Origin: Roseivivax jejudonensis
Lineage (GTDB): Bacteria > Pseudomonadota > Alphaproteobacteria > Rhodobacterales > Rhodobacteraceae
Assembly: GCF_900172265.1 (NCBI RefSeq)
Contig: NZ_FWFK01000004.1
Location: forward strand, 310,001 to 374,000
Length of the DNA: 64,000 nucleotides
Reading direction: 5' to 3'
The translations under genes were made by a program, and so were the position numbers. The notes below the pieces were generated by a model, which did no database searches, was not told the origin of the DNA, and worked only from the letters and a program-made list of their open reading frames with translations. Shown piece by piece: positions 35,087-50,705 of this stretch (positions are counted from its first letter, which is position 1; each line of letters starts with the position of its first letter).

Positions 35087-36091
35087 ATGCGTATCGCGAT
35101 CAACGGCTTCGGGCGGATCGGGCGGACGGTGTTGCGGCAGGTTCTGACCGGCCGCGGCACGGACGACATCGAGATCGCCTTCGTCAACGACATCGCCCCG
35201 CGCGACACCTGTGCCTACCTCTTCCGCTACGATTCCGTCTTCGGCCCCTTCCCCGGCACGGTCGAGACCACGCAGGACGGTCTTCGCATCGACGGCCGCG
35301 ACATCCCCCTTCTGTCGGAGCGGGACCTCGGGCGCCTGCCGCTCGCGGGCGTGGATGTGGTCATGGATTGCACCGGCACCATAAAGACCCGCGATCAGGC
35401 CCGCCGCGGGCTCGAGGCCGGCGCCACCAACGTCCTGATCTCGGGCCCCTGCGACGAGGCCGAGGAAACGCTGGTGATCGGTGCGAACGAGGACCGGCTG
35501 GGCGAGGCGCGCATCGTGTCGAACGCCTCCTGCACGACGAACGCGCTGGCGCCGCTCCTGAAATCACTACACGCCGCCGCACCGATCGCCCGCGGTCACA
35601 TGACGACGATCCACTGCTACACCGGCTCTCAGCCCACGGTCGACGCGCCGCGCGGCGACCTCGCCCGCAGCCGCGCCGCCGCGGTGTCGATGGTGCCCAC
35701 CACGTCGAGCGCCACCCGCCTCGTCGGGCGCATCGTGCCGGAACTGGCCGGCCGCATCACCGGCGCCGCGGTCCGTGTCCCGACGCTGAGCGTGTCGGCG
35801 ATCGACGCGGTGCTGACTTTCGAATCTCCCCTCGGCGAAGACCCACGCGCGCTCCTGGCTCGGATCGCCGGCGAGAGCCCGGTTCTCGGGGTGACCGATG
35901 ATCCCTGCGTCTCGACCGATCTGCGCGCGCGGCCCGAAAGCCTGGTCATCGCACTGCCGGAAACGCTCGCGCCCGATGCGGCTCAGATCCGCGTGTTCGG
36001 CTGGTACGACAACGAATGGGGCTTTTCGGCGCGGATGATCGACATGGCGCGGCGGATGGCGGTGCGTCAGGTGGCGACCGCGGCGAGCTGA
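35087..36091 (+). CDS. Atypical type I glyceraldehyde-3-phosphate dehydrogenase-like protein
   Basis: A 334-residue NAD(P)-dependent dehydrogenase of the GAPDH fold. The Rossmann start is MRIAINGFGRIGRTVLR. The catalytic Cys is in SNASCTTNALAP and the catalytic His in HMTTIHCYTG. The inorganic-phosphate region, normally PTTTGAA-like, reads PTTSSATRL here, and the usual TNDQ-type motif after the His is GSQPTVDAP. These changes fall in the anion-recognition sites, so the physiological substrate may differ from glyceraldehyde-3-phosphate. It stands 93 bp after metF; no other glycolytic gene is near. Good GGAGGG ribosome site. Confidence 0.8.
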   Translation: MRIAINGFGRIGRTVLRQVLTGRGTDDIEIAFVNDIAPRDTCAYLFRYDSVFGPFPGTVETTQDGLRIDGRDIPLLSERDLGRLPLAGVDVVMDCTGTIKTRDQARRGLEAGATNVLISGPCDEAEETLVIGANEDRLGEARIVSNASCTTNALAPLLKSLHAAAPIARGHMTTIHCYTGSQPTVDAPRGDLARSRAAAVSMVPTTSSATRLVGRIVPELAGRITGAAVRVPTLSVSAIDAVLTFESPLGEDPRALLARIAGESPVLGVTDDPCVSTDLRARPESLVIALPETLAPDAAQIRVFGWYDNEWGFSARMIDMARRMAVRQVATAAS

Positions 36092-37311
36092 CCCGCCGCC
36101 CGCCGCGCCGACGCGACCTCTCCGGCATCGAGAAGCGCCGACACCGCGCGCAGGCCATCGCCAAGGCTCGCCCGGTCCAACGGGCCGCCCGCCGTCGCCT
36201 CCTCACGCCGGATGTGCAGCGCCGGCGCGGTGCGCGACCGTGCGCCGAACGCAGTCTTGTAGGGCGCGGCGCCGGGCCCGAAATCGTAGCTGGTGAAGCC
36301 GTGCGCAATGGCCCAGCGGATCGCTTCGGCATGCAACAGAACGCCGACCGATGCCGTCGCGCCATCGGGCGCGGCGCCGCCCTCGGTCACGTGTACGCGG
36401 TCCATGTCGTGGTCGAGGATGTGGGCAAGCGCACCGAGCGCGGTGTCGCCCTCCCACAGCACCATCATCATCAGCGCATCGGTCCCGAGCGCGTTGGCCA
36501 GGACCGCGCGGCCGTTTGCGGCCGCGCGCTCCGCCGCCGCCGGGCCCAGCGCCGCGGCGAGGGCGGCGCGGCGCGGCGCGAGCGCGATGGCGGCGTCACG
36601 CTCGAAGCTGTCGGCGGTGGTGATCGTGACGCAGCGCCGGCCCGTGCCGAGATAGCGCCGTTCGAACCGGCGGATGCGCTGCGCGAACGGGCGGCGCGGC
36701 GCGGTCTGAAGCCAGGTCTCGTAGCTCTCGGGGAGCGCGAGCACCGGGCGGACCGAGGCCGCACGGGCGGCCGCGTCCGCGTCTTCGACGACCGTGACGG
36801 CGCTGGCGTCGAAGCAGGCCGCGAACCGCCGCGCGCGCTCCGGCGCGATCTCGGCCGCGAGCGACAGCGTGGTCCAGGGCCGCGCGGACAGCGCCGCGGC
36901 CAGCGCCGCGAGCGCGCCGTCCTCGTGCTCCGGCGCGACGAGCATCCCGGTATAGTCGCTCAGGATCAGCCGCCCGGCGGAGACGAGCACGGTCTCCAGC
37001 CGCCCGTCCCCGGCGTTCCAGCGGGCGCGCAGCATCAGCGGCAGGATCGCGACCGCCGCCCCGCCCTCGGCGCGGGCGCGCACGACGTAGACCCGCCAGC
37101 GGCCGGGATTGTCCCGGAAAGCACGGTCGAGCCACGCCCACGACAGGAACACGCTCATCTGCGGATCCCGCGCCGCGAGCGCCTGCCAGTCGGGCTTCAG
37201 ACGGCGGAACGCGTCGTGGGTGTCCACGGTCTCGACGACGAAACTGCCGGAGTGGATCCGGTGAGAGACGTCACCGTCGGAAGATGCGGCGAGGGGCGCG
37301 GCGTCAAGCAT
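36067..37311 (-). CDS. GNAT acetyltransferase, BioF2/FemAB-like
   Basis: A protein of about 414 residues with the BioF2-type (Acetyltransf_6) GNAT fold. The N-terminal half has DWQALAARDPQMSVFLSWAWLD and WRVYVVRARAEGGAAVAILPL. The C-terminal half has the acetyl-CoA-binding-like region with a LHAEAIRWAIAHGFTSYDFGPG motif, typical of cell-wall or polysaccharide acyltransferases. The substrate is unknown. I use ATG 37311 (MLDAAPLA); a GTG at 37335 is an alternative. Its 3' end overlaps the GAPDH-like gene by 25 bp in convergent orientation. Confidence 0.78.
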   Translation of the reverse strand: MLDAAPLAASSDGDVSHRIHSGSFVVETVDTHDAFRRLKPDWQALAARDPQMSVFLSWAWLDRAFRDNPGRWRVYVVRARAEGGAAVAILPLMLRARWNAGDGRLETVLVSAGRLILSDYTGMLVAPEHEDGALAALAAALSARPWTTLSLAAEIAPERARRFAACFDASAVTVVEDADAAARAASVRPVLALPESYETWLQTAPRRPFAQRIRRFERRYLGTGRRCVTITTADSFERDAAIALAPRRAALAAALGPAAAERAAANGRAVLANALGTDALMMMVLWEGDTALGALAHILDHDMDRVHVTEGGAAPDGATASVGVLLHAEAIRWAIAHGFTSYDFGPGAAPYKTAFGARSRTAPALHIRREEATAGGPLDRASLGDGLRAVSALLDAGEVASARRAAGQLAAVAT

Positions 37312-37404
37312 GGGCGAAGTGTCCGGAACAATCACGAGTTGCGCTGTCTTTCGGTCGGTTCACCCTGCGCTATTGTCCGATTCGGGCAATTTTAGGGATC
37401 GCGC

Positions 37405-39047: not shown

Positions 39048-40025
39048 CTAGACGGCGACGCCGGGCACCTCGACATGGCGCACGCCCTCCTCGAAGCCGC
39101 CCAGCGACTGGCGCCACGTCGTGCCGGGCCAGCGCACCTCCATCTGGCCCCGCCGCGGGCGGTAGACGGCGGTGTAGAGCGTGCCGAAGCCGTGCGCGAA
39201 GGCCGTCGAGTAGAGCGGCGGCTTGAGGAAGGCGGAGACGAACTTCTCTTCGGGATCGCGGTGCAACGTCAGGCGCTGCAGCAGGTAGCGCTCGCGCTCC
39301 ACCGTGGCGGTGAACCGCGCGTGGCTGACCCATTCGACGTTTTCCTGATGGTTCGTCGCCACCGCGGCATGGGTCAGGATCGCCGGGCGGTCGGGCGAGA
39401 GCATCGCAGTCACGAATTTCCGTCTCCGGTCAAGCGCGGTCACGTTGTAACTCATGTGCGTGGGGATCCGCGCGAGCGCCGCGCCGGCCTCTTCGGCGGT
39501 GGAGCAGGTCTGCAGAACGTAGCGCAGGATGATCGGCACGCCGAACCCCTCGCCGACGATGCGCCGTCCGCCGAAGGTCAGCGACACCGCGAGGCCGGCA
39601 TCGTTCACGCCGTCGACGAGCCCCCAGAGCCCGTCCGACACGCCCATCACCGTGCGGCCCTGCCACCGCGTGCGCAGGATAAGGCTGTCGAAGGCGTTGG
39701 GCGCGTAGTCGTAATTGCGCACCATCACCGGCTCGCGCCCTGGCCAGATCGCCTGGCTGCAGCCCGACAGGTAGGGCGGCGGCGTGTGGAACGACAGGAA
39801 CCGCGCCGCCTGGTCGCCGCCTCCGGCGAGCTCGCAGAGCCGGTCGTAGAGCGGCACGATCTCGGGCATGTGGGCCTCGAGCGCGCGGCGGCTCTCGAGA
39901 TAGGTGGGGCGCGCGGCGTCGCCCTCGCGCAGCCACCAGCGGCGGTAGTCGGGCCAGTATTCGTGAAAGAGCGCGGCCCATTTCGGGCCGGGCTCATCCT
40001 CGGATATGGCGCGCCAGAGGGGCAT
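39048..40025 (-). CDS. C45-type Ntn hydrolase (acyltransferase/amidohydrolase)
   Basis: A 325-residue protein like the isopenicillin N acyltransferase/carcinine hydrolase (peptidase C45) family. The predicted nucleophile Cys follows TPPPYLSGCSQAIW, and the family-typical MVRNYDYAPN strand comes next. Later VSLTFGGRRIVGEGFGVPII and ATNHQENVEW supply substrate-pocket segments. In this family autocatalytic cleavage before Cys yields the active enzyme; here about 88 residues precede it. The reaction is cleavage or formation of an amide bond. It is 64 bp downstream of the ATP-grasp gene, same strand, at the end of the amine module. Confidence 0.82.
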   Translation of the reverse strand: MPLWRAISEDEPGPKWAALFHEYWPDYRRWWLREGDAARPTYLESRRALEAHMPEIVPLYDRLCELAGGGDQAARFLSFHTPPPYLSGCSQAIWPGREPVMVRNYDYAPNAFDSLILRTRWQGRTVMGVSDGLWGLVDGVNDAGLAVSLTFGGRRIVGEGFGVPIILRYVLQTCSTAEEAGAALARIPTHMSYNVTALDRRRKFVTAMLSPDRPAILTHAAVATNHQENVEWVSHARFTATVERERYLLQRLTLHRDPEEKFVSAFLKPPLYSTAFAHGFGTLYTAVYRPRRGQMEVRWPGTTWRQSLGGFEEGVRHVEVPGVAV

Positions 40026-40089
40026 GGGAGCCGTGTCTACAGCGGGACGCGGGACCGCGGCAAGAGCGGCCGGTCGCGGCCCGGCCGCG

Positions 40090-41547
40090 CTAAAGGATCT
40101 TGAAGGCCGGATCGGCGAGCGCGGGTCCGGCCTGCGCCACCGGCAGGGGCTTGCCCGCCACCTGGCTCTTGATGCCGTGGATCCACTTCTTGGCCCGGTC
40201 GTTCAGCCGGAACGACTTGGTCATCGAGCGGCCGCGGGTGACGAGGATGCCGAGATCGGCGCCTTCGTAGCGGTAGTCGCCGGGGCGGATGATGCGCAGG
40301 AAGAACGCCTCGTTCTCGCTCTCCACCGCGCGGCGGTGATAGTCGAAGCGGTCGAAGACCACGCGGCCGTCCTCGAGCATCCGGTAGATCCCGGTTTCCG
40401 GCGCCGCGGTGCAGATGTCGACCGTGTCGTCGGTGTGCTTGATGACCATCTGGCTCCAGCTGTCGATATTGTCGGGATCGGCCCAGCGGGCGTTGAGCTC
40501 GTCCACGTCCAGCTTGAACTTCTTCTTGGAGAACTCCAGCAGGTGGAACAGGAACAGCGGCGCGTCGGCATGGGCGAAGGCGGCGTGGTTGGTCATCGAC
40601 GAGGCGCCGGTGATCCGTGGGTTGAGCTCGCCCAGCCAGAGATCGCCGGATTTCTTGTCGATCAGGAAATCGAGTTCGAAATAGCCGCGGTAGCCTTCCT
40701 TGCGCAGCTGCTCGCCGAACTTGAAGGTCAGGTCGCGCGCCTCTTCGCGCACCTTGGGCGGGAAAGCCGAGGCGAGGATCTCGTTTCCGCACCAGCCGCC
40801 GCGATAGGGCGTGAGTTCCTTGAAGCCAACGAGCTCGGTCATCAGGGGGCCGACGATCGTGCCCTGGTCGGTCGCGCAGGCCTCGATCGCGGAGCCGCGG
40901 CAATCGATGCGCCGCATCACCTTGATCTCGCCCTGCCCCACGATTTCGTGCTCGTGGCGACGGAAGTCCGCTTCGGACTTGATGAAGAACGTCGTGTGGC
41001 CGCTGTCGCCGAAGGCCGATTGCAGGACGAGGTCGTCGCCGATCCCGGCCTTCTCGGTCACCTTCTTGAGATGCGCGTAGTCCTTGATCTCGCTCAGCGT
41101 GTTGGGCACCGACGGCACGCCCGCCTTGTTGCCGACGCGCACCGTTTCGATCTTGTTGTCCATCTTGGTGCGAAGCTTGGCCTTCGGGAACCAGACCTCG
41201 CCGCCGAGTTCCTTGACCAGTTCCTCGGTCTTGTCGTCGAACATCAGAAAGACGAAGCGCGGCTTGCCGCCGCGGCGCTTCACGAGATCGATGACCTCCT
41301 TGTGGGACAACAGGTAGTTGTTGATGTCCTCGATCGACTGGAATTCCGCGTGCGGCTGTTCGGACGGGCAGAAGACGTTCGGATGGCGGCCGTCATAGCA
41401 GTCTATGTAATTGATGTACTTGAAATTCTTCGCCCACTCGTCGATCCCGAGAAGATTGAAGTTGGTCGCCGAGACAAAGTAGATCGGATCCTCGTTGCGG
41501 TGAAAGAACCGCCGGATCTCGGAGATGTTTCTAAGTTCCTTGGCCAT
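40090..41547 (-). CDS. ATP-grasp ligase of unknown substrate
   Basis: A 485-residue ATP-grasp protein; annotators often call such proteins biotin carboxylase, but no biotin-related gene is near. The nucleotide-binding region includes DDLVLQSAFGDSGHTTFFI and the strand GEIKVMRRIDCRGSAIEA. The catalytic end has YFELDFLIDKKSG and the Mg-binding LGELNPRITGAS. The N-terminal part (about 1-130) is a Rossmann-like domain. ATP-grasp enzymes couple a carboxylate with an amine via acyl-phosphate. Its place 23 bp downstream of a PLP decarboxylase suggests that the amine produced there is the acceptor. This is inference. Confidence 0.85.
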   Translation of the reverse strand: MAKELRNISEIRRFFHRNEDPIYFVSATNFNLLGIDEWAKNFKYINYIDCYDGRHPNVFCPSEQPHAEFQSIEDINNYLLSHKEVIDLVKRRGGKPRFVFLMFDDKTEELVKELGGEVWFPKAKLRTKMDNKIETVRVGNKAGVPSVPNTLSEIKDYAHLKKVTEKAGIGDDLVLQSAFGDSGHTTFFIKSEADFRRHEHEIVGQGEIKVMRRIDCRGSAIEACATDQGTIVGPLMTELVGFKELTPYRGGWCGNEILASAFPPKVREEARDLTFKFGEQLRKEGYRGYFELDFLIDKKSGDLWLGELNPRITGASSMTNHAAFAHADAPLFLFHLLEFSKKKFKLDVDELNARWADPDNIDSWSQMVIKHTDDTVDICTAAPETGIYRMLEDGRVVFDRFDYHRRAVESENEAFFLRIIRPGDYRYEGADLGILVTRGRSMTKSFRLNDRAKKWIHGIKSQVAGKPLPVAQAGPALADPAFKIL

Positions 41548-41570
41548 GGCCGGTCCCTCTTCCTGCTGGC

Positions 41571-44309
41571 TTATTCGGCCGCGTGGGACAGGTTCGCCCC
41601 CGCATGCGTGTCGAGCGCGGCCTTGGTAAAGACGCGCAGGCCCAGATCGGGCCGGTATCCGTGGATCTCGTTGACGTCGAGCGCGCGCATGAAGTCGAGG
41701 ATCTCGTTCGAGATCACCTGACCGGGCACGAGGATCGGGAAGCCGGGCGGATAGGGAATGATGAAGGACGCGGAGACAAGCTCCTCGCCGCGCTCCATCG
41801 CCGCCTTCAGGCTGCCGTCGAGTTCCAGATAATCGCAGTTGTCCTCGTCGTAGGCGAGGAAGAACGCGGCGCGGATGTCGCCCTCGGGCGTTTCGCCGTC
41901 CGCGCGGAACGCGTCGTGGAAGCGCGAGAAGTCCGGCAGCGGCGGAAGCTCTTCCATCAGGTGCTTGACCCGGCGCTCGAAGCCCATCTTCTCCATGCGG
42001 CTCGCGTCATCGATCAGGTCGTCGAGCTCCTTGGCGATCTCCACCAGAACCTCGATCAGGTAGGCGACCGAGGACCGCGTCGTGCCGATATTCGTCATGA
42101 ACAGGACGGTGTTGCGCGAGGTCTTGTTGATCTGGATCCCGTACTTGTCCATCAGGATCTGCGTCTTGAACGTGTCGCCGTCCCACCCCGTGCCGCCGAC
42201 CGACAGCGTCACCCGCGTGGCGTCGAGCACGAATTCGTCGCGATCCCATGCATCCCAGATCTCGGCCCAGCCCTGATCGGTCGAGTAGTAGGCGGTGACG
42301 CCGCTTTCGCGGTGCGCCTCGGGGATCATGTCGGCGACGGTCAGCACCTTGAAGTACTTCTGCAGAAGCGGGTGCGTGCCGATCGCGCGGCGCATGGCCA
42401 TGGCGGCCTCGATCTGGCGCTGGACGAACTCGAACCCCTCCAGCTCGACCTGCCGGCGCCCGACATCGAGCGAGGCGATGATCTGGTAGTTCGGCGAGGT
42501 CGAGGTGTGGGTCATGTAGGCTTCGTGGAAGCTCTGCTCGACCTCGCCTTTGAAGTCCTGGTCGTTGACGTGGATCATCGAGCCCTGGCGCAGCGACGTC
42601 AGCGTCTTGTGGGTCGACTGCGTGGCGTAGACCCGGACCCGGGCCTTCGGCGGCGGGATCAGGCGCGTGGCCAGCAGGGTCTCTTCGTCGGCCTCCCCGA
42701 GCGCGGCCTGCTGTGCCTCGTAGGCGCGGGCGTGCTCTTCGGTGCGCAGGCGGGCGCGCATGTCGTTCGCGGTGTTCATCGCGGTGCGGTGGCGATAGGT
42801 CGGGTTGAAGCGGGCGAAGGCGAACCATGCCTCGTCCCAGAGAAAGATGAGGTCCGGCTTGATCGCCAGGCACTCTTCCATGATGCGCTCGACGTTGTAG
42901 ACGATGCCGTCGAAGGTGCAGTTCGTCAGCAAGAGCATCCGCACGCGGTCGAGCTTGCCCGCCGCCTTGAGCTTCAGGAGCTGGTGCTTGATCTCGCGCA
43001 GGGGGACAGCGCCGTACATCGAGTATTCGTTGAGCGGGTAGCTGTCGAGGTAGTTCACCTGCGCGCCCGCCAGCACCATGCCGTAATGGTGCGACTTGTG
43101 GCAGTCGCGGTCGACCAGAACGATATCGCCCGGCCGGATCAGCGCCTGCACCACGATCTTGTTGCAGGTCGACGTGCCGTTGGTGGCGAAGAACGTCTGC
43201 TTCGCGCCGAAGGCGCGCGCCGCGAGTTCCTGCGACTCCTTGATGGGCCCGTGCGGCTCCAGCAGAGAGTCGAGGCCGCCGGACGTCGCGGAGGTTTCGG
43301 CCAGGAAGATGTTCGGCCCGTAGAAGGCCGCCATGTCCTGGATCCAGTGCGAGCGCGTCACCGACTTGCCGCGGCTGATCGGCATGGCGTGAAAGACGCC
43401 GGTGGGCTGCTTGGAATAGTTGGTGAGCGCGGTAAAGAACGGTGTCTTGTAGCGCGCCTGCACCCCCCGGATGATGTTGAGGTGCAGCTCCATGAAGTCT
43501 TCCTGATTGTAGAAGACGCGGCGGCAGATGCCGAGGTCGAGCCCGGCGATATCCTCGACCGAACGGTCGGTGACGAGATAGGCGTCAAGCTCCGGGCGCA
43601 CGTCGGCCACGAGGCGGCAGAGTTCGGCGCCGTAATTGTGCGGGTCGACATCCTGCAGGTCGTCGCGTCCCCCCGCCCCGGCGAGGTAGCGCTTCAGCAG
43701 CGGCATGTTGTACTTGGACCGCAGCGTGAGACCGGGCCGCACGACGATGGCCTGGATGTTGTGGTTGAAGAGGATCGCCATGAGCGCGTCCTCGAGGCTC
43801 GGCACCACCACGCTTTCGTAAAGGAACGGGTCCTCGGGCCTGCGCATCCGCGCCACGTTCGACTTGAGCCAGCGCTCCTGATGCTCGTTGACCTGATCGA
43901 CGATCAGGACCTCGAAATAGGGCTTCGTCAGCGCGCGCGCCTCGGGCGACAGCATCGCCTCGTCGTCGTTCTCGTCGGGCTCCATCGAGTCCCGGTCGAG
44001 CGGGATGTGCCGGCGCCGGTAGGCGCCGGTGGTGAGCGCACGCAGCACCCGGTGGACCGAGTAGGACAGGTCGTCGTAGGCCTTGTGCTCGAACTGCCGG
44101 CGCATGTGATCGAAGGCCGCCATGCCCGGGAACGCCCAGTAGGGTTCGATCACCGCGAGCGAGTCGAACAGCGCCTGCACGCGGTCGCGCAGCCTCAGCA
44201 TCTGACGGTCGTCGGCCCCGCGCGTCAGCGCCTCGGTCGCCTCGCGCAGCGCCGACCAGCGGTCGCTGCGCAACTGGATCGCCGAGTAGTATTCGTTCAC
44301 GGACTCCAT
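41571..44309 (-). CDS. Orn/Lys/Arg-type PLP decarboxylase
   Basis: A 912-residue fold-type I decarboxylase, longer than the 710-755 residues of the inducible E. coli enzymes. The N-terminal wing domain (about 1-260) precedes the aminotransferase-like core. Core motifs are ATSGGLDSLLEPHGPIKES, FFATNGTSTCNKIVV, VDRDCHKSHHYG and FLWDEAWFAFARF. The PLP lysine lies in YATQSTHKTLTSLRQGSM. The C-terminal part has the usual SFIIPYPPGFPILVPGQ. The product should be a diamine or agmatine-type amine, but substrate choice cannot be read. The ribosome site is GGGAGG. It lies between the amidohydrolase and the ATP-grasp gene. Confidence 0.92.
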   Translation of the reverse strand: MESVNEYYSAIQLRSDRWSALREATEALTRGADDRQMLRLRDRVQALFDSLAVIEPYWAFPGMAAFDHMRRQFEHKAYDDLSYSVHRVLRALTTGAYRRRHIPLDRDSMEPDENDDEAMLSPEARALTKPYFEVLIVDQVNEHQERWLKSNVARMRRPEDPFLYESVVVPSLEDALMAILFNHNIQAIVVRPGLTLRSKYNMPLLKRYLAGAGGRDDLQDVDPHNYGAELCRLVADVRPELDAYLVTDRSVEDIAGLDLGICRRVFYNQEDFMELHLNIIRGVQARYKTPFFTALTNYSKQPTGVFHAMPISRGKSVTRSHWIQDMAAFYGPNIFLAETSATSGGLDSLLEPHGPIKESQELAARAFGAKQTFFATNGTSTCNKIVVQALIRPGDIVLVDRDCHKSHHYGMVLAGAQVNYLDSYPLNEYSMYGAVPLREIKHQLLKLKAAGKLDRVRMLLLTNCTFDGIVYNVERIMEECLAIKPDLIFLWDEAWFAFARFNPTYRHRTAMNTANDMRARLRTEEHARAYEAQQAALGEADEETLLATRLIPPPKARVRVYATQSTHKTLTSLRQGSMIHVNDQDFKGEVEQSFHEAYMTHTSTSPNYQIIASLDVGRRQVELEGFEFVQRQIEAAMAMRRAIGTHPLLQKYFKVLTVADMIPEAHRESGVTAYYSTDQGWAEIWDAWDRDEFVLDATRVTLSVGGTGWDGDTFKTQILMDKYGIQINKTSRNTVLFMTNIGTTRSSVAYLIEVLVEIAKELDDLIDDASRMEKMGFERRVKHLMEELPPLPDFSRFHDAFRADGETPEGDIRAAFFLAYDEDNCDYLELDGSLKAAMERGEELVSASFIIPYPPGFPILVPGQVISNEILDFMRALDVNEIHGYRPDLGLRVFTKAALDTHAGANLSHAAE

Positions 44310-44367
44310 CGCGGCATCCTCCCTGTCATCGGGCGGCCGGTACCGGATCGGACTCCGTGCCGCCGCC

Positions 44368-45327
44368 TCATCTCGTTCCGGTCAGTCCCTCCGCGTGCTG
44401 CGGCGGATACACATCCTTCGGCTGCGGCGCCTCGGCTTCGCTTTCGACATCGACCCGGATCCCCGTCCGCGATCCCTTCTGCGGCATCTCGAGCGGGCCG
44501 AGCGTGTGCAGGTAGGCGTCGGCCCCCGCCGCGCGGTCGTAGACCGGGAAATCGTTGGATCGGTCGCGGAAGGACTTGAGCACCTGGCCCAGCCCCTTGA
44601 GGCCGGTTTCGCGCTGGCGGCGCACCATGTCGAAATCGACCTCGATCGGGAACATGTCCTCCTGCCCGCCGGACTGGTGCAGCACCATCGACGACGGATC
44701 GACGACGCAGGACTTGCCGACACCGCCGGCCCCGAGGCCGTTGACGTCGATCACGTAGCATTGGAACTGCGCCGCGGTGGCCCGCGCGATGGCCAGCTCC
44801 GCGTCGCGGTCGGTCGTGCCGGTGAGGACCGGGTGCAGCAGCACCTCGGCGCCCATCGAGGTCAGCTGCCGCGTCGTTTCCGGAAACCAGATGTCGTAGC
44901 AGATCGACAGGCCGAAGCGGCCGACCTCCGGCACGTCGAAAACGCAGAAATCGGTGCCCGCGGTGATGCCCTGCTCGTAGGGCCGGAACGGGAACATCTT
45001 GGAATAGCGCGCGACGATCTCGCCGTCGGGGTCGATGACGAACGAGGTGTTGCGGATTTCGCCTGCCTCGTTCTTGATGAACATCGATCCCGGAACGAGC
45101 CAGATACCGTTGCGGCGCGCCGCCTCGCGGAACTTGTCGAGCGCCTCGTTCTCGTCGGGGAGCGCGAACTTGTTGAGCGGACCGAACGGCGCGAGCTCCG
45201 AGAACAGGACCATCTGGGTCCAGGGGAACCTGGCGAGGCAGACGTCCAGACGGTGGATCATCCCGTCGACGTTGGATTGAAGCGGGTTCACGTATTGCTG
45301 GATCCCAGCGATGGCGAACGGGGTCAT
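44368..45327 (-). CDS. Nitrilase-superfamily carbon-nitrogen hydrolase
   Basis: A 319-residue amidohydrolase. The catalytic triad is visible as Glu in LFSELAPFGP, Lys in RYSKMFPFRPYE and Cys in SICYDIWFPETTRQL. The LHPVLTGTTDRD and ARATAAQFQCYVIDVNG segments complete the fold. Members include N-carbamoylputrescine and N-carbamoyl-amino-acid amidases; the adjacent decarboxylase makes an amine-related substrate plausible. The C-terminal about 50 residues, ending HAEGLTGTR, extend past the usual fold. It starts 71 bp after the universal stress gene and ends 58 bp before the decarboxylase. Ribosome site GGAGA. Confidence 0.9.
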   Translation of the reverse strand: MTPFAIAGIQQYVNPLQSNVDGMIHRLDVCLARFPWTQMVLFSELAPFGPLNKFALPDENEALDKFREAARRNGIWLVPGSMFIKNEAGEIRNTSFVIDPDGEIVARYSKMFPFRPYEQGITAGTDFCVFDVPEVGRFGLSICYDIWFPETTRQLTSMGAEVLLHPVLTGTTDRDAELAIARATAAQFQCYVIDVNGLGAGGVGKSCVVDPSSMVLHQSGGQEDMFPIEVDFDMVRRQRETGLKGLGQVLKSFRDRSNDFPVYDRAAGADAYLHTLGPLEMPQKGSRTGIRVDVESEAEAPQPKDVYPPQHAEGLTGTR

Positions 45328-45398
45328 ATAAGAAAATCTCCGATGGCGTCGTCCGTCAGGCCAGTGAGCCTGGATGGGACGTGTGCGTCCGGCATTCC

Positions 45399-45830
45399 TT
45401 ACGCCCTTACGACCAGGACCGAAACCGGAGACCTGCGGACAACCTTGCCCGCATGACTGCCAACGAGGAAATTCTGGGCAAAGTCGGGATCATGGCTCGC
45501 CATCACGACAAGGTCCGCCCCGGTCTCTTCGACCGCCTCGATCACGCGCTGGGTGATGTTGCCCAGCGCGATATGCTGTTCGTGGGGCGTATCCGCGGGC
45601 AGACGCTCGCGCGCGAGCGAATCGAGCTTCTTCTTGGCCGCGTCGAGCGCCTGCTCCTCGTAGCCCGCGGGAAAGAACCCCTCGACCAGCGGCATCCCCA
45701 TGTCGGGCACGACCGTCAGCAGGTGCAGTTCGCCAGCCGAGGCCTTGGCAAGCTCGATCGCCTGCGGGAGGGCCAGCTCGTAGGACGCGGGGTCGTTCAG
45801 ATCGACCGTCACGAGGATCTTGTGATACAT
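45399..45830 (-). CDS. Universal stress protein
   Basis: A 143-residue UspA-domain protein. It opens MYHKILVTVDLND. It has the ATP-binding region with MASHDPDF and the GSHAGKVVRRSPVSVLVV glycine/serine motif near the C-terminus. It is sandwiched 12 bp after the TRAP permease, a common association in marine alphaproteobacteria, where Usp proteins can regulate or accompany TRAP transporters. Confidence 0.93.
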   Translation of the reverse strand: MYHKILVTVDLNDPASYELALPQAIELAKASAGELHLLTVVPDMGMPLVEGFFPAGYEEQALDAAKKKLDSLARERLPADTPHEQHIALGNITQRVIEAVEETGADLVVMASHDPDFAQNFLVGSHAGKVVRRSPVSVLVVRA

Positions 45831-45842
45831 CGCCCCCCCTCC

Positions 45843-48611
45843 TCACTCGGCCGCTTGCGGACGACGTCCCGCCGATGCCTGCGCGGCGCGCCCGCGCTGC
45901 ATCCAGACGATCAGGCCCAGGACAAGGAAGGCCGGGATGAACATCAGGTACTTCGACGGCTGCCATTGCGGCTGCAGCACGCGCAGCACCTCCTGATCCC
46001 AGTCGAGGCCGGCATCCTGCGCCGCGCTGTCGAACATGACGTCGTCGATGATGAGGCTGTCGCCCTCCTCGCGGAAGATCAGGCCGGCGTTCTCGAGCCG
46101 TTCGGCCCCCGTCTCGCCCTCGGGCATGTCGAGAAGCGCGGTGAACTCGAGCGGTTCGCCGATCTCGTTCACGCCCGCGATCCGCAGCCGGAGGGGTTCG
46201 CCCACGGGCGTGCCCTCGGCCGCGGCCTCGATGTTCGTCGGCGGCACCGGTTCGTAGGGCGGATAGACCATGTCCATCCAGAAGCCCGGCCGGAACAGCG
46301 TGAACGCAATCAGCAGCAGCGCGATGGTCTCGTAGATCCGGTTCTTGGCGAGGAACCAGCCCTGCGTCGCCGCCGCGAAGAGCAGCATGGCTATGGTGGC
46401 GATCACGAAGACGAAGATCCCCTGTATCCACGTCACGTCGATCAGCAGAAGCTGCGTGTTGAAGATGAACAGGAACGGCAGCGCCGCGGTCCGGAGCGAG
46501 TAGAAGAACGCCACCGCCCCGGTCCGGATCGGATCGCCGCCGGACACCGCCGCGGCGGCAAACGACGCGAGGCCCACGGGCGGCGTCACGTCCGCCATGA
46601 TCCCGAAGTAGAACACGAAGAGGTGCACCGCGATCAGCGGCACGATCAGCCCGTTCTGCTGGCCGAGCGTGACGATCACCGGCGCCAGCAGCGCCGATAC
46701 GACGATGTAGTTGGCCGTCGTCGGCAGGCCCATGCCGAGGATCAGCGACAGGATCGCCGTCAGGAACAGGATCGCGAGGATGTTGCCGCCCGACAGCACC
46801 TCGACCACGTCGGCCAGCGCCGAGCCGACGCCGGTCTGGCTGACCGCGCCGACGATGATGCCCGCCGTCGCCGTCGCGATGCCGATGCCGATCATGTTCC
46901 GCGCGCCGGTCACGAGGCCGTCGATCAGGTCGACCACGCCGTTGCGCGCCGCGGTGGCGTACTGCCCCTGCCCGCGGAACAGCGCCATGAGCGGCCGCTG
47001 CGTGAGCAGGATGAAGATCATGTAGGCCGCCGCGTAGAACGCCGAGAGGCCGGGCGACAGGCGGTCCACCATCAGCGCCCAGACCAGCACCACGACCGGC
47101 AGGATGAAGTGCAGGCCAGAGCGCACCGTCGGCCCCGGCAGCGGCAGCGTCTTGGCGTCGTCCGACATTTCGGGGATCGTCTCTTTCGAGGCGATGTAGA
47201 CGAGCCCGACATAGATTGCCGTCAGCAGCACGAAGAGGATCCAGCCCGCGGTGTCGGGAAAGACCGTTCGGATCCAGCCCATGCCGTAGTAGACGATGAA
47301 CGACAGCGCGCAGATCGCGGCGATGATGAAGGCCATGCCGATCAGCCGCTGGACGATGGGCTTTGGCGTGTACGCGCGCGGCAGCCCCTCCATGCCGGCC
47401 TTCAGCGCCTCGAGGTGCACGATGTAGACGAGCGCGATGTAGGAGATCACGGCCGGCAGGAAGGCGTGCTTGACCACGTCGAAATAGGGGATGCCCACGT
47501 ACTCGACCATCAGGAAGGCCGCGGCGCCCATCACCGGCGGCATGATCTGGCCGTTGACGGAGGAGGCGACCTCGACCGCACCGGCCTTGGACGAGTTGAA
47601 GCCGACCTTCTTCATCAGCGGGATCGTGAAGGTGCCGGTGGTCACCACGTTGGCGATCGACGAGCCGGAGATCAGGCCCGTCATGGCCGACGACACCACG
47701 GCCGCCTTGGCCGGGCCGCCCTTCATGTGGCCCATCAGCGAAAAGGCGACCTGAATGAAGTAGTTGCCAGCCCCCGCCTTATCCAGAAGCGAGCCGAACA
47801 GCACGAAGAGGAACACGAAGGACGTAGAGACCCCGAGCGCAATGCCGAAGACGCCCTGCGTCGTGATCCACTGATGGTTCATCACCACGCCCAACGACTT
47901 CGCCGAGTGCGCGATGAGCTGCGGCATGTAGGGCCCGAGGAACGTGTAGCCGAGGAAGACCGTCGCCACGATCATCAGCGCCGGCCCGAGCGACCGGCGC
48001 GTCGCCTCGAGCAGCAGCAGAAGCCCGATGACGCCGACGACGAGATCCTGCGTGATCGGCGCCCCGACCCGGTTCGAGATTCCTTCGTAGGCCAGGTAGA
48101 TATAAAGGGCGGACCCCGCGCCGAAGAGCGCCAGCGCCCATTCCCATGGCGGCACCCGGTCCTTGGGCGAGCCGAGCAGAACGCAGACGATCACCGCCGC
48201 GCCGATCAGAAGCGTCCACCATGCCGTTCCGCCCGAACCGATGAAGAAGAGGATCGACAGGATCAGCGGCACTGCCACGCCGAGACCGAGCTGGAACGGC
48301 GTACGCGCCGCCGGGAAGGCCATGAAGCCGAGGAACAGCGCGAAGGCGAGGTGGAACGAGCGCGCCTCGGTGGCACCGAAAACGCCGACGCCGATCATGT
48401 AGGGCAAGGGCGAGGCGATCCAGAGCTGGAACAGCGACCACGCGAGCGCCACGACCACGATCAGCTTGCCGACCGGTCCGGAGGGAGAGCGGCCTCCCGC
48501 GTCGGTCGAGGCGACAAGCTGGTCCAGTTCGTCCTGGCTCATCCCGGCGCGTCCGGAGGCTTCGTTCTCCACGGCCGAGGCCTGGAACTGATCCTTGTCC
48601 TTGTCGCTCAT
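45843..48611 (-). CDS. TRAP transporter fused permease (TAXI type)
   Basis: A 922-residue inner-membrane protein in which the small (about 4-TM) and large (about 12-TM) TRAP permease subunits are fused. Hydrophilic N-terminal 55 residues precede the first segments. DctM-like motifs include GLISGSSIANVVTTGTFTIP, NGQIMPPVMGAAAFLMVEYV and GMGLPTTANYIVV. The last about 170 residues include a soluble Glu-rich region and a final hydrophobic segment (YLMFIPAFLVLGLIVW). It imports an organic acid or similar ligand bound by the TAXI protein encoded upstream. It is 153 bp downstream of that gene, with a hairpin between. Confidence 0.93.
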   Translation of the reverse strand: MSDKDKDQFQASAVENEASGRAGMSQDELDQLVASTDAGGRSPSGPVGKLIVVVALAWSLFQLWIASPLPYMIGVGVFGATEARSFHLAFALFLGFMAFPAARTPFQLGLGVAVPLILSILFFIGSGGTAWWTLLIGAAVIVCVLLGSPKDRVPPWEWALALFGAGSALYIYLAYEGISNRVGAPITQDLVVGVIGLLLLLEATRRSLGPALMIVATVFLGYTFLGPYMPQLIAHSAKSLGVVMNHQWITTQGVFGIALGVSTSFVFLFVLFGSLLDKAGAGNYFIQVAFSLMGHMKGGPAKAAVVSSAMTGLISGSSIANVVTTGTFTIPLMKKVGFNSSKAGAVEVASSVNGQIMPPVMGAAAFLMVEYVGIPYFDVVKHAFLPAVISYIALVYIVHLEALKAGMEGLPRAYTPKPIVQRLIGMAFIIAAICALSFIVYYGMGWIRTVFPDTAGWILFVLLTAIYVGLVYIASKETIPEMSDDAKTLPLPGPTVRSGLHFILPVVVLVWALMVDRLSPGLSAFYAAAYMIFILLTQRPLMALFRGQGQYATAARNGVVDLIDGLVTGARNMIGIGIATATAGIIVGAVSQTGVGSALADVVEVLSGGNILAILFLTAILSLILGMGLPTTANYIVVSALLAPVIVTLGQQNGLIVPLIAVHLFVFYFGIMADVTPPVGLASFAAAAVSGGDPIRTGAVAFFYSLRTAALPFLFIFNTQLLLIDVTWIQGIFVFVIATIAMLLFAAATQGWFLAKNRIYETIALLLIAFTLFRPGFWMDMVYPPYEPVPPTNIEAAAEGTPVGEPLRLRIAGVNEIGEPLEFTALLDMPEGETGAERLENAGLIFREEGDSLIIDDVMFDSAAQDAGLDWDQEVLRVLQPQWQPSKYLMFIPAFLVLGLIVWMQRGRAAQASAGRRPQAAE

Positions 48612-48723
48612 CGTCGTGTTCCCTGTCCGTGTCGGCCCGTTGTTCTTGGCGTTGCACAGGCCCGATCGGTACGAGACTGCCCGGGTCCGGAATCATTCAC
48701 CAGAAAAACATTTTAGTGGACGA

Positions 48724-48743
48724 CCCCGCCGCGAGAAGCGGGG
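48724..48743 (-). terminator. Hairpin between TAXI binding protein and permease
   Basis: A 6-bp stem (CCCCGC/GCGGGG) with an 8-nt loop lies 21 nt after the binding-protein stop. A T-run occurs only about 20 nt further. It could lower permease expression relative to the binding protein, as often found in TRAP operons. Confidence 0.4.
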
Positions 48744-48764
48744 CCGCCAATGCTCAGACAGAGA

Positions 48765-49730
48765 TCAGGAGCCGCCGTCCATCCAGCCCTGCTCCTGGTA
48801 GTATCTCTCGGCGCCCGGGTGCAGCGGCGCGGAGAGACCGGCCTGGATCATCTGCTCCTGCTCGAGGTTGCCGAAGGCCGGATGCAGGCGCTTGAAGCGG
48901 TCGAAGTTGTCGAAGACGGCCTTCACCACCTCGTAGACGGTGTCCTCGGCCACGTCGGCGGAGCTGACGAAGGTCGCGCGCACACCGAAGGTCGTCGTGT
49001 CGTCTTCGACGCCCTCGTAGAGCGACGCGGGAATCGTCGCTTCGGCATAGAACGCGTTGTCCGCGATCAGCTGGTCGATGTAGTCGCCGGTCACGTCCAC
49101 GAAGACCGCGTCGCAGCTCGAGAACGCTTCCTGGATCGACCCGTTCGGGTGACCGACCTGGTAGACGAAGGCGTCGATGTTGTTGTCGCAGAGCGCCTGC
49201 GCCTGCTCCGTCGCCTGAAGCTCGGATGCGAGCGAGAACTGGTCGGTGGTCCAGCCGGCGGCTTCCATCACCACGTCCATCGTCGCCCGCTGGCCGGAGC
49301 CCGGGTTGCCGATGTTCACGCGCTTGCCCTCGAGGTCATCGAAGGTCTCGATGCCGGCATCGGCCCGCGCGACCACGGTGAACGGCTCGGGGTGGACGGA
49401 GAACACCGCGCGGAGCGCCTCGTAGGGCTCTTCGAACGATGCCTCGCCGTTGTAGCCGTAGTACTGCTGGTCGGACTGCGCGACGCCCATCGTCTGGTCG
49501 CCCGACTTGATCGCGTTGATGTTCGCGACCGAACCACCGGTCGACGGCGCGGTGCACTGAAGGCCATGCTCTTCGGTTCCGCGGTTCACGAGACGGCAGA
49601 TCGACTGCCCCACCACGTAGTAGACGCCGGTCTGGCCGCCGGTTCCGATGGTGATGAACTCGTTCTGCGCGATGGCGCCGGTGCCGGCAAAGAGCGCGGC
49701 GACGGCAACGAGTGTTCCGGTGTGCTTCAT
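48765..49730 (-). CDS. TAXI-family TRAP solute-binding protein
   Basis: A 321-residue periplasmic protein. Residues 1-21 (MKHTGTLVAVAALFAGTGAIA) are a signal peptide. The family opening EFITIGTGGQTGVYYVVGQ, then GSVANINAIKSGDQTMGVAQSDQ, then KRVNIGNPGSGQRATMDVVM are diagnostic of the TAXI group (TIGR02122-type). The start at 49730 has AGGGAGA 6 nt upstream and gives the best signal; an upstream start at 49754 adds eight residues. Ligand unknown. It is the first gene of the transporter-usp-amine operon. Confidence 0.95.
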   Translation of the reverse strand: MKHTGTLVAVAALFAGTGAIAQNEFITIGTGGQTGVYYVVGQSICRLVNRGTEEHGLQCTAPSTGGSVANINAIKSGDQTMGVAQSDQQYYGYNGEASFEEPYEALRAVFSVHPEPFTVVARADAGIETFDDLEGKRVNIGNPGSGQRATMDVVMEAAGWTTDQFSLASELQATEQAQALCDNNIDAFVYQVGHPNGSIQEAFSSCDAVFVDVTGDYIDQLIADNAFYAEATIPASLYEGVEDDTTTFGVRATFVSSADVAEDTVYEVVKAVFDNFDRFKRLHPAFGNLEQEQMIQAGLSAPLHPGAERYYQEQGWMDGGS

Positions 49731-50093
49731 CTCATTCTCCCTGGATGTCGTCATGGCTGGGGGCGTTCATACCGAGGGGCTGCGCCAAGCGGCCCGAAGG
49801 GTCCGGCCGGTCGGCGACGCGACGCCCGCGGCGACCCGGCATGATGATGATACGCTCCCCCATCGCTTTCGACGTTAACAGGGAGCCAAAGGTAATCAAG
49901 CGCCGGAAATCAGGCACTTAGAGACGGAAAATCAAGGCGCGGGGCAAGATCCCGCTGTCGCGGAACCGCGACGGCGCCGCAAAAGTGCGAAAGTTATCAA
50001 ATCATTAATCGGTCATTCTGAAACAATTGACCGTGGCGGGACGATCAGCGGTGTCGGCCTGCCGGATTCCCGCAAGCCCGCCTTTGCGCACAC
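49731..50093. other. 363-bp intergenic region before the TRAP/amine operon
   Basis: No gene seen. It probably carries the promoter of the TAXI gene (minus strand) and the 3' end of the Mla operon. An A/T-rich patch at about 50000-50030 and a perfect 16-bp palindrome (49957-49972, GTCGCGGAACCGCGAC) are the only structures I can point out. I cannot fix a promoter. Confidence 0.6.
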
Positions 50094-50705
50094 TCAGATC
50101 CGCGCCAGCGCCCACTCGGCGAACGCAACGAACAGCCTGTCGGACGCCGCGTCGAAGGCCGCGACGAGGCTCGGCGTCGCGGTGTCGGCGGCCCGCGCCG
50201 ACGACTCGAACGTGCGGCTGGCGATGATGCGCACGCCCTCCTCGCGCACGAGCTGCACCCGCATCCGAAGACGCACCTCCGCGCCCTCGCCGCTCTCGTC
50301 CGCTTCGGCCTGGAAATCGATGATGTCGGTGACGATGGCGATGTCGCCCGACAGCCCCAGCGGCGTGCGCCCGGCATAGCGGAACGCCTCGGTCTCCTGC
50401 AGCGTGCGCAGCATCAGCGACTGCACCATCACCGGCACCTCCTCGCCCCAGCGGGCGTCGGGAAGGTACTGCGCCTGCAGCGCCGAAGGCCGGATCATGA
50501 TCCGGTCGGTGGCGAGCGCGCCGGTCGTCGTCGGCTCTTCCACGATCACGTCGAGCGCGCGGGCGCCGCCCTGCGGCACCGCCTCGGGCGCGCGCAGCTC
50601 GTAGACGTCGAGAACGCTCGTCGCCTCGCCCAGCGCCGACAGGGCGGAGCAGCCGGGCAGCAGGACAAGACACAGAAGGGCGGCGGATAGGCGCATCGGG
50701 ATCAC
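50094..50705 (-). CDS. ABC-type transport auxiliary lipoprotein (MlaB/PqiC-like partner)
   Basis: A 203-residue outer-membrane or periplasmic lipoprotein. The signal ends in the lipobox LLPGC (Cys19). The mature part fits the ABC-transport auxiliary (PqiC-like) domain, with YELRAPEAVPQGG, RIMIRPSALQAQYL and WGEEVPVMVQSLMLRTLQ. The start GTG at 50705 overlaps the mlaD stop (GTGA), so it is coupled; an ATG at 50696 is also possible. It is the last gene of the lipid-transport operon. Confidence 0.87.
   Translation of the reverse strand: MIPMRLSAALLCLVLLPGCSALSALGEATSVLDVYELRAPEAVPQGGARALDVIVEEPTTTGALATDRIMIRPSALQAQYLPDARWGEEVPVMVQSLMLRTLQETEAFRYAGRTPLGLSGDIAIVTDIIDFQAEADESGEGAEVRLRMRVQLVREEGVRIIASRTFESSARAADTATPSLVAAFDAASDRLFVAFAEWALARI

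Follow-up and report, generated by a model that had tools for sequence, protein, structure and literature searches.

What substrate could be served by a gene run in which an importer stands beside a decarboxylase, an ATP-grasp protein and two amide-cleaving enzymes? This question is raised by a stretch of 64,000 nucleotides of the Roseivivax jejudonensis genome (assembly GCF_900172265.1, contig NZ_FWFK01000004.1, positions 310,001 to 374,000 of the forward strand), hereafter the window, in which such a run lies on the minus strand. The original prediction, made from the letters and their open reading frames (ORFs), had read it as a six-gene operon in which importer and enzymes would form a complete cycle for making or using an amine-conjugated metabolite. 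That interpretation is partly supported by the present analysis. The conserved unit is smaller, comprising the four genes NIT, DEC, ATPG and C45, and its occurrence beside glutamate, gamma-aminobutyrate (GABA), arginine or ectoine genes points to an undescribed pathway in which an amide is made and broken.

Conservation of the four-gene core

Nine minus-strand ORFs, which span positions 49754 to 36067, were profiled against Pfam and NCBIfam. The core comprises a nitrilase-superfamily carbon-nitrogen hydrolase (NIT; 44368..45327, minus strand as for all genes below, 319 amino acids, PF00795), an Orn/Lys/Arg-family decarboxylase of fold type I that depends on pyridoxal phosphate (PLP) (DEC; 41571..44309, 912 amino acids, PF01276), an ATP-grasp protein (ATPG; 40090..41547, 485 amino acids, NF005096, named 'biotin carboxylase') and a C45 N-terminal nucleophile (Ntn) hydrolase/acyltransferase (C45; 39048..40025, 325 amino acids, NF040521). 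The enzyme families that had been assigned to these genes are supported by the profile matches.

Related loci were taken as the best 80 of 560 confirmed matches, a set biased towards close kin in which the per-gene denominators drop loci short of flank. DEC was found in 75/75 of the loci with sufficient flank, NIT (upstream of ATPG) in 72/72 and C45 in 77/77. The order NIT-DEC-ATPG-C45 was intact in 73 of the 80 loci and in the remaining seven was interrupted by a contig end, so that the arrangement lies far beyond chance and is not unique to the Roseivivax genome. The closest named loci among these 80 are from Roseivivax (91-92% ATPG identity), and in nine of the 80 the core stands without any other tracked partner gene. 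Genome samples gave less biased counts. Among 149 evenly sampled Rhodobacterales genomes, the same 33 carry ATPG, DEC and C45 (at least 63% identity). Less similar C45 paralogues (40-48%) are present in part of those 33 and in three further genomes. Matches were further obtained in 11 of 398 genomes of a phylum-wide sample and in 11 of 385 of a class-wide sample, eight of the latter above the family cut-off, and in 0/14 control genomes.

In addition, 25 diverse loci outside the 80 were compared, with genes counted by tblastn. They comprise nine of 32 plasmid records (L082 being counted apart), seven of 11 phylum-sample matches, a second copy in genome G110 and eight of 11 class-sample genomes, with the match in G778, which is in two pieces, excluded; L083/L084/L109, L105/L106, L101/L103 and L114/L116 are near-duplicates, five rhizobial loci are alike, and the record of L084 is flagged UNVERIFIED_ORG. 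Within 6 kb of ATPG and on the same strand, C45 was present in 23 of these loci, DEC in 19 and NIT in 11 (the NIT match of L086 is weak and perhaps due to chance). A conserved, recurrent enzyme set with intact catalytic motifs, linkage and co-occurrence is established by these observations. Decaying copies were observed as well, one on a Rhizobium plasmid with C45 truncated beside insertion sequences (L088) and one in genome G692 with ATPG reduced to a C-terminal fragment (L120).

DEC and its substrate

DEC possesses both the PF01276 major domain and the S-x-H-K lysine, and Lys568 occupies the PLP position in all 78 copies that are readable among the 80 loci and in 18/18 of the diverse ones. 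A basic amino acid (Arg, Orn or Lys) had been considered as its substrate; PF01276 membership still speaks for this reading, which is weakened by the replacement of two glutamates that SpeC and CadA carry. Asn728 (79/79 readable copies from the 80 loci, 19/19 diverse loci with DEC) replaces the Glu of SpeC (E524) and CadA (E526), at a site where AdiA has Thr571, and Gln864 (80/80 and 19/19, respectively) replaces the Glu of the PGE/SGE motif common to SpeC (E663), CadA (E663) and AdiA (Glu708). Arg732 (79/79 and 18/19; the DEC match of L010 does not include residues 728-732) stands where SpeC has Leu, CadA Pro and AdiA Asp (Asp575). These three positions presumably meet the side chain of the substrate. 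DEC also falls under the cut-off of every named Lys/Arg/Orn decarboxylase among the NCBIfam matches listed (best LdcC, 221 against 968 bits), and no second PF01276 match was found in its own genome at E 1e-5. In the portions of the literature available, including those of PMC8503589 and PMC7866039, no statement on a substrate-binding role of the replaced glutamates was found.

The best PDB match of DEC is Rv2531c (9N0O, residues 14-902, 831 bits), and by its sequence DEC is a member of an Rv2531c-like branch of the Orn/Lys/Arg family. Rv2531c carries the name 'probable amino acid decarboxylase' and, according to the accessible text of PMC12910592, has no assigned activity. A DEC-like gene (50%) with the same three residues as Asn728, Arg732 and Gln864 occurs in two Rhodobacterales genomes. 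At L124 (2236-11822) its neighbours are a pair of aspartate-alanine antiporters (598.9 and 614.7 against 546.95 bits) and an aspartate 4-decarboxylase (709.7 against 435.1 bits), and L123:2669-16922 is alike by eye; this cluster is possibly a second amino acid/amine exchange system. Because the DEC-like gene sits beside AspT-type antiporters and an aspartate 4-decarboxylase, an acidic amino acid is favoured as the putative substrate of the DEC branch.

ATPG, C45 and NIT

ATPG passes the equivalog cut-off of NF005096 (PRK06524; 750.4 against 684 bits), and its name raises the alternative that the protein is a PurK- or biotin carboxylase-type carboxylase, which would leave no amide ligation in the pathway. 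In favour of this, the PDB sequences that it weakly matches are for the most part carboxylases (best 2-oxoglutarate carboxylase, E 1.9e-05), and CPSase_L_D2 matches all 22 family members scanned (E 1 or less, best 6.4e-05); for ATPG itself no Pfam family was matched at E 1e-3, and a threshold of E 1 gave CPSase_L_D2 alone (11.3 against 19.8 bits). PurK and biotin carboxylase likewise head the fold list of its AlphaFold2 model (predicted local distance difference test score 83.2), with PylC, an amide ligase, no more than 1.0 Z from the best, and the search did not separate them. The motif and domain tests argue otherwise. Biotin_carb_N and Biotin_carb_C were matched by none of the 22 members, and at the site where a solved biotin carboxylase domain has EMNTRIQV, ATPG reads GELNPRITGAS, in which ELNPR is invariant and is followed by QVEH in none of the 23 aligned sequences, QVEH being part of the catalytic ExNxRIQVEH motif of biotin carboxylases. 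Nor was a carrier protein or carboxyltransferase found among the nine window genes scanned. A biotin carboxylase subunit, which the original prediction had named as a finding that would refute it, was rejected for want of the motif, the N- and C-terminal domains and the partner proteins; what remains in its favour is the database name, unsupported by these tests, and the carboxylases among its sequence and fold neighbours, and we regard any carboxylase function as very improbable. Amide ligation is the activity that we infer for ATPG, because it has the ATP-grasp fold and C45 is adjacent in 23/25 diverse loci.

C45 passes the cut-off of NF040521 (178.7 against 85 bits). Autocleavage is predicted at Gly88|Cys89, a pair invariant in 19 aligned rows, and many solved Ntn chains align with C45 starting at residue 89. 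The closest fold is that of isopenicillin N acyltransferase (2x1c), over 300 residues, and no PDB sequence match was obtained at E 1. A C45 paralogue (47%) is present elsewhere in the same genome, close to an ORF that by eye resembles CopG (L121, G000:C18:260210-261160), and paralogues similar to it occur in other Rhodobacterales genomes; another (44%) adjoins a classical Orn/Lys/Arg decarboxylase with the PGE motif (L125:5753-9702).

In NIT, Cys143, Glu44 and Lys110 stand at the sites expected by motif for the catalytic triad, and the CYD-x-W motif was seen in 11/11 homologues inspected. A route through arginine decarboxylase, agmatine deiminase and N-carbamoylputrescine amidase was also considered and rejected, NIT lying far under the cut-off for AguB (TIGR03381, 58 against 410.25 bits) and agmatine deiminase (PF04371) having no match in the Roseivivax genome, with 5/14 control genomes positive.

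An optional importer, probably for glutamate

Upstream of NIT lie a TAXI solute-binding protein (48765..49754, 329 amino acids), a fused TRAP permease with a C-terminal DUF3394 (45843..48611, 922 amino acids, PF06808 and PF11874) and a universal stress protein (Usp; 45399..45830, 143 amino acids, PF00582). All of the genes named in the original prediction are present on one strand, separated from TAXI through C45 by gaps (153, 12, 71, 58, 23 and 64 bp) that agree with those given there, and the tight, co-directional arrangement stands; the run consists of seven genes rather than six, and the start of the TAXI ORF lies at 49754 instead of 49730.

The TAXI and TRAP proteins score well above the cut-offs of TIGR02122 (349.9 against 84.35) and TIGR02123 (644 against 320.65), respectively. 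The closest PDB sequence to TAXI is 8s4j (394.8 bits), which we took as VcGluP since its letters match all 13 pocket residues named in the accessible text of PMC11574862. According to that text, VcGluP of V. cholerae is specific for glutamate, with Tyr45 and Gln93 mattering most in the pocket. L-glutamate is a likely ligand of TAXI as judged from its sequence, because 10/13 of the pocket residues are identical, including Tyr45 and Gln93.

If the importer were an integral part of a dedicated amine/amide module and supplied the substrate of the decarboxylase, as originally proposed, it should accompany the enzymes. The short gaps on one strand are consistent with this, as is the recurrence of TAXI and TRAP in 42/68 related loci with sufficient flank and in the diverse locus L118. 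However, TAXI is missing from 26/68 related loci, and other transporters stand in at the Shinella-type and Rhizobium plasmid loci described below. The importer is optional to the module, and we consider it unlikely that it forms an integral part. Usp is optional as well (30/72 related loci, at least 45% identity).

Genomic contexts and alternative pathways

The genes that accompany the core in the 80 related loci recur in part. gabT lies upstream in 26/68 loci, an FMN-type (flavin mononucleotide) glutamate synthase-like gene accompanies the core in 22/67, and AMT3, a class III aminotransferase, lies downstream in 29/74, in 22 of those 29 within 60 bp of C45 as judged from tblastn ends. Where 9.5 kb of upstream sequence is available (67 loci), TAXI-TRAP occurs without gabT in 31, gabT without TAXI-TRAP in 16, both in 10 and neither in 10.

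More distant loci add further contexts. At the Shinella locus and two similar ones, a permease, Usp, a SpeB-family ureohydrolase, 5-guanidino-2-oxopentanoate decarboxylase, aldehyde dehydrogenase, ATPG, C45, D-amino acid dehydrogenase and a racemase lie on one strand, with a carbon-nitrogen hydrolase and an Lrp-type regulator divergent from it; in L083, the ureohydrolase is an agmatinase by TIGR01230 (212.3 against 174.3) and the 5-guanidino-2-oxopentanoate decarboxylase reaches 737 bits (cut-off 500). In L101, and by similarity in L103, NIT-ATPG-C45-DEC sits inside an ectoine operon, between an Lrp-type regulator and genes for a class III transaminase and a protein like succinate-semialdehyde dehydrogenase; DoeA (670.2, cut-off 613), DoeB (491.4, cut-off 402.7) and EutB (NF005680, 465.6, cut-off 413) were recognised there, the last being below the cut-off of TIGR02991. 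In H. elongata, doeX, doeC and doeD occupy the corresponding place without the insert, according to the accessible part of PMC3187862. Plasmids of Rhizobium leguminosarum carry DEC-ATPG-C45 together with an ATP-binding cassette (ABC) transporter, in L086 adjoining nifHDKEN. The ABC sets of L082, L086, L087 and L108 look like importers because a binding protein is present in the same gene run. On the Rhizobium plasmids of L087 and L108, the module also lies near radical-SAM (S-adenosylmethionine) genes for a ribosomally synthesised and post-translationally modified peptide, with a Nif11-type precursor. In Cupriavidus (L085), genes for a DctA/GltP-like symporter and a binding protein come after the four-gene core, the highest-scoring name for the latter being glutamate/aspartate (210.8 bits, under the cut-off of 375).

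These contexts bear on two alternatives. In the first, the locus would be a small biosynthetic cluster whose product is an amide to be exported or stored, such as an osmolyte, a signal or a nitrogen store, in which C45 would swap an acyl group and NIT would trim the product. Isopenicillin N acyltransferase is a transferase, the core lies within the ectoine operons of L101 and L103 and beside nif genes in L086, and the nine loci in which it stands alone would fit as well. Nevertheless, most of the neighbours that were recognised serve import or catabolism (gabT, doeA, doeB, 5-guanidino-2-oxopentanoate decarboxylase, D-amino acid dehydrogenase), and the ABC sets are importer-like too, so that we rate a biosynthetic role as rather doubtful.

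The second is a gamma-glutamyl polyamine route. In the Puu (gamma-glutamyl putrescine) pathway, glutamate is ligated to an amine, the product is later hydrolysed, and GABA transaminase follows; its ligase and hydrolase, we assume, are of families other than ATPG and C45. Transferred to the present locus, DEC would produce agmatine, putrescine or cadaverine from a basic amino acid, ATPG would join imported glutamate to it, a class III transaminase would oxidise the free amine end, and C45 would free glutamate and GABA. The PF01276 family of DEC, the glutamate-type TAXI, the fold of C45 and the gabT and AMT3 neighbours all suit this route. So do the SpeB-family genes, which lie near the core in L083, L084 and L109 and in L114 and L116, where they precede NIT by 0.9-1.7 kb in the same orientation, and the aldehyde dehydrogenase-like genes of L083, L084, L109, L101, L103 and L104. 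Of the regulators, that of L082 alone was scanned; its best name is PuuR, and a relative of it lies upstream in 19/67 related loci; the match is, however, below the cut-off (135.6 against 211 bits). Further against the route, the two SpeC/CadA glutamates are absent from every readable DEC, which mostly has Arg732 at the site of AdiA Asp575, agmatine deiminase was not found in the Roseivivax genome with PF04371, and neither an oxidase nor an aldehyde dehydrogenase was seen among the nine window genes scanned. We rate a Puu-like route as less probable than not, somewhat above the biosynthetic cluster.

Proposed function of the module

We tentatively prefer, and weight above the Puu-like polyamine route, a module centred on glutamate and GABA in which an amide is formed and hydrolysed. 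NIT-DEC-ATPG-C45 would act on a pool of acidic or omega-amino acids, most likely glutamate and GABA. Judging from its pocket, TAXI-TRAP would import L-glutamate, and the amino acid that DEC would decarboxylate is one whose side chain is acidic or neutral, with the conversion of L-glutamate to GABA as the most likely reaction, as suggested by the replaced acidic residues and the genomic contexts. ATPG might then use ATP to link the omega-amino acid, or the side-chain carboxyl of glutamate, to a partner by an amide bond, which C45, as an N-terminal Cys89 hydrolase/acyltransferase, and NIT would cleave or exchange. The class III transaminase (AMT3 here, gabT elsewhere) would convert the omega-amino acid to its semialdehyde.

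Several points weigh against this assignment. All substrates, the partner in the amide and the direction in which the pathway runs, and with them the complete cycle first proposed, are inferred throughout. The substrate-contact role of the replaced glutamates is presumed, and AdiA also lacks the first of them (Thr571); a basic amino acid is what both the name of the family and PF01276 suggest; and the SpeB-family genes near the core (L114, L116 and the L083 type, with L083 above the agmatinase cut-off) could mean arginine or agmatine. The sequence and fold neighbours of ATPG include carboxylases. DEC is absent near ATPG in 6/25 diverse loci and same-strand NIT in 14/25, the 10/67 related loci mentioned above have neither TAXI nor gabT, and the Roseivivax genome has no GABA transaminase above the TIGR00700 cut-off.

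Word searches of one open-access library returned no description of a NIT-DEC-ATPG-C45 pathway, in agreement with the earlier view that the set belongs to no named one. Roughly one in five of the Rhodobacterales genomes sampled (33/149) has the module, which recurs in other Pseudomonadota, on Rhizobium plasmids and in ectoine operons. Assigning its function would name an activity for a branch of decarboxylases of which a single member has been solved, itself without an assigned activity, would correct the label of ATPG, and would add a step to the use of glutamate, GABA or arginine by these bacteria.

Other features of the window

AMT3 (PRK07483; 37405..38730, NF005685, 771 bits against a cut-off of 485) is associated with the core and in the window is separated from C45 by 317 bp; it is followed by a GNAT-domain protein (36067..37335), which was found downstream in just 2/72 related loci. 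Scans of the window for promoters and terminators gave about the counts of shuffled sequence (2 against 1.3 and 5 against 5.9, respectively), and no RNA element was found within the operon at the Rfam gathering score. The only match in the window at that score is a SAM-alpha riboswitch outside the operon (RF00521, 59273-59350, minus strand, 56.5 bits against 36). Upstream, at 50094-52879 on the minus strand, an apparent MlaD-type protein (725 amino acids) and a small lipoprotein look by eye like parts of an ABC lipid transport set, and a like-named pair is found in L082. A role in anti-phage defence was rejected, as none of the nine window proteins had a PADLOC match at E 1e-3.

Comparison with known systems

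The importer most closely resembles VcGluP/VcGluQM of Vibrio cholerae (VC0430/VC0429), in which a protein of the TAXI family likewise pairs with a fused permease bearing an extra C-terminal domain. It differs in that Ser40, Asp157 and Met201 of VcGluP are Gly, Gln and Gln in the window TAXI, and in that the window pair precedes an enzyme core. With SpeC, CadA and AdiA of E. coli, DEC shares the PF01276 major domain and the catalytic S-x-H-K lysine at 24-28% identity, whereas its N-terminal region is longer and both SpeC/CadA glutamates are substituted, of which AdiA retains the second one only. Rv2531c of Mycobacterium tuberculosis carries the same Asn and Gln as positions 728 and 864 of DEC, and an Ile where the DEC family mostly has Arg732. 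ATPG has the ATP-grasp fold and weak sequence similarity in common with biotin carboxylase and with N5-carboxyaminoimidazole ribonucleotide synthetase (PurK); unlike biotin carboxylase, it is without Biotin_carb_N, Biotin_carb_C and the QVEH motif. C45 has the fold and the N-terminal Cys nucleophile of isopenicillin N acyltransferase and other C45-type Ntn enzymes, at 15% identity to the former.

At the level of the pathway, a logic possibly in common with the Puu system is the ligation of glutamate to an amine, its later hydrolysis and the feeding of GABA transaminase. The Black-Ebony-Tan cycle of flies offers another parallel. There, an acidic amino acid decarboxylase yields an omega-amino acid, which is coupled and then released by a hydrolase, Tan, whose family we take to be that of C45. 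By analogy, although we think it improbable, the module might be a bacterial counterpart of this cycle, in which DEC would supply GABA or beta-alanine, ATPG would couple it to an amine or amino acid and C45 would free it again, the whole being a mobile unit attached to the catabolism of glutamate, arginine and ectoine and to symbiotic nitrogen metabolism.

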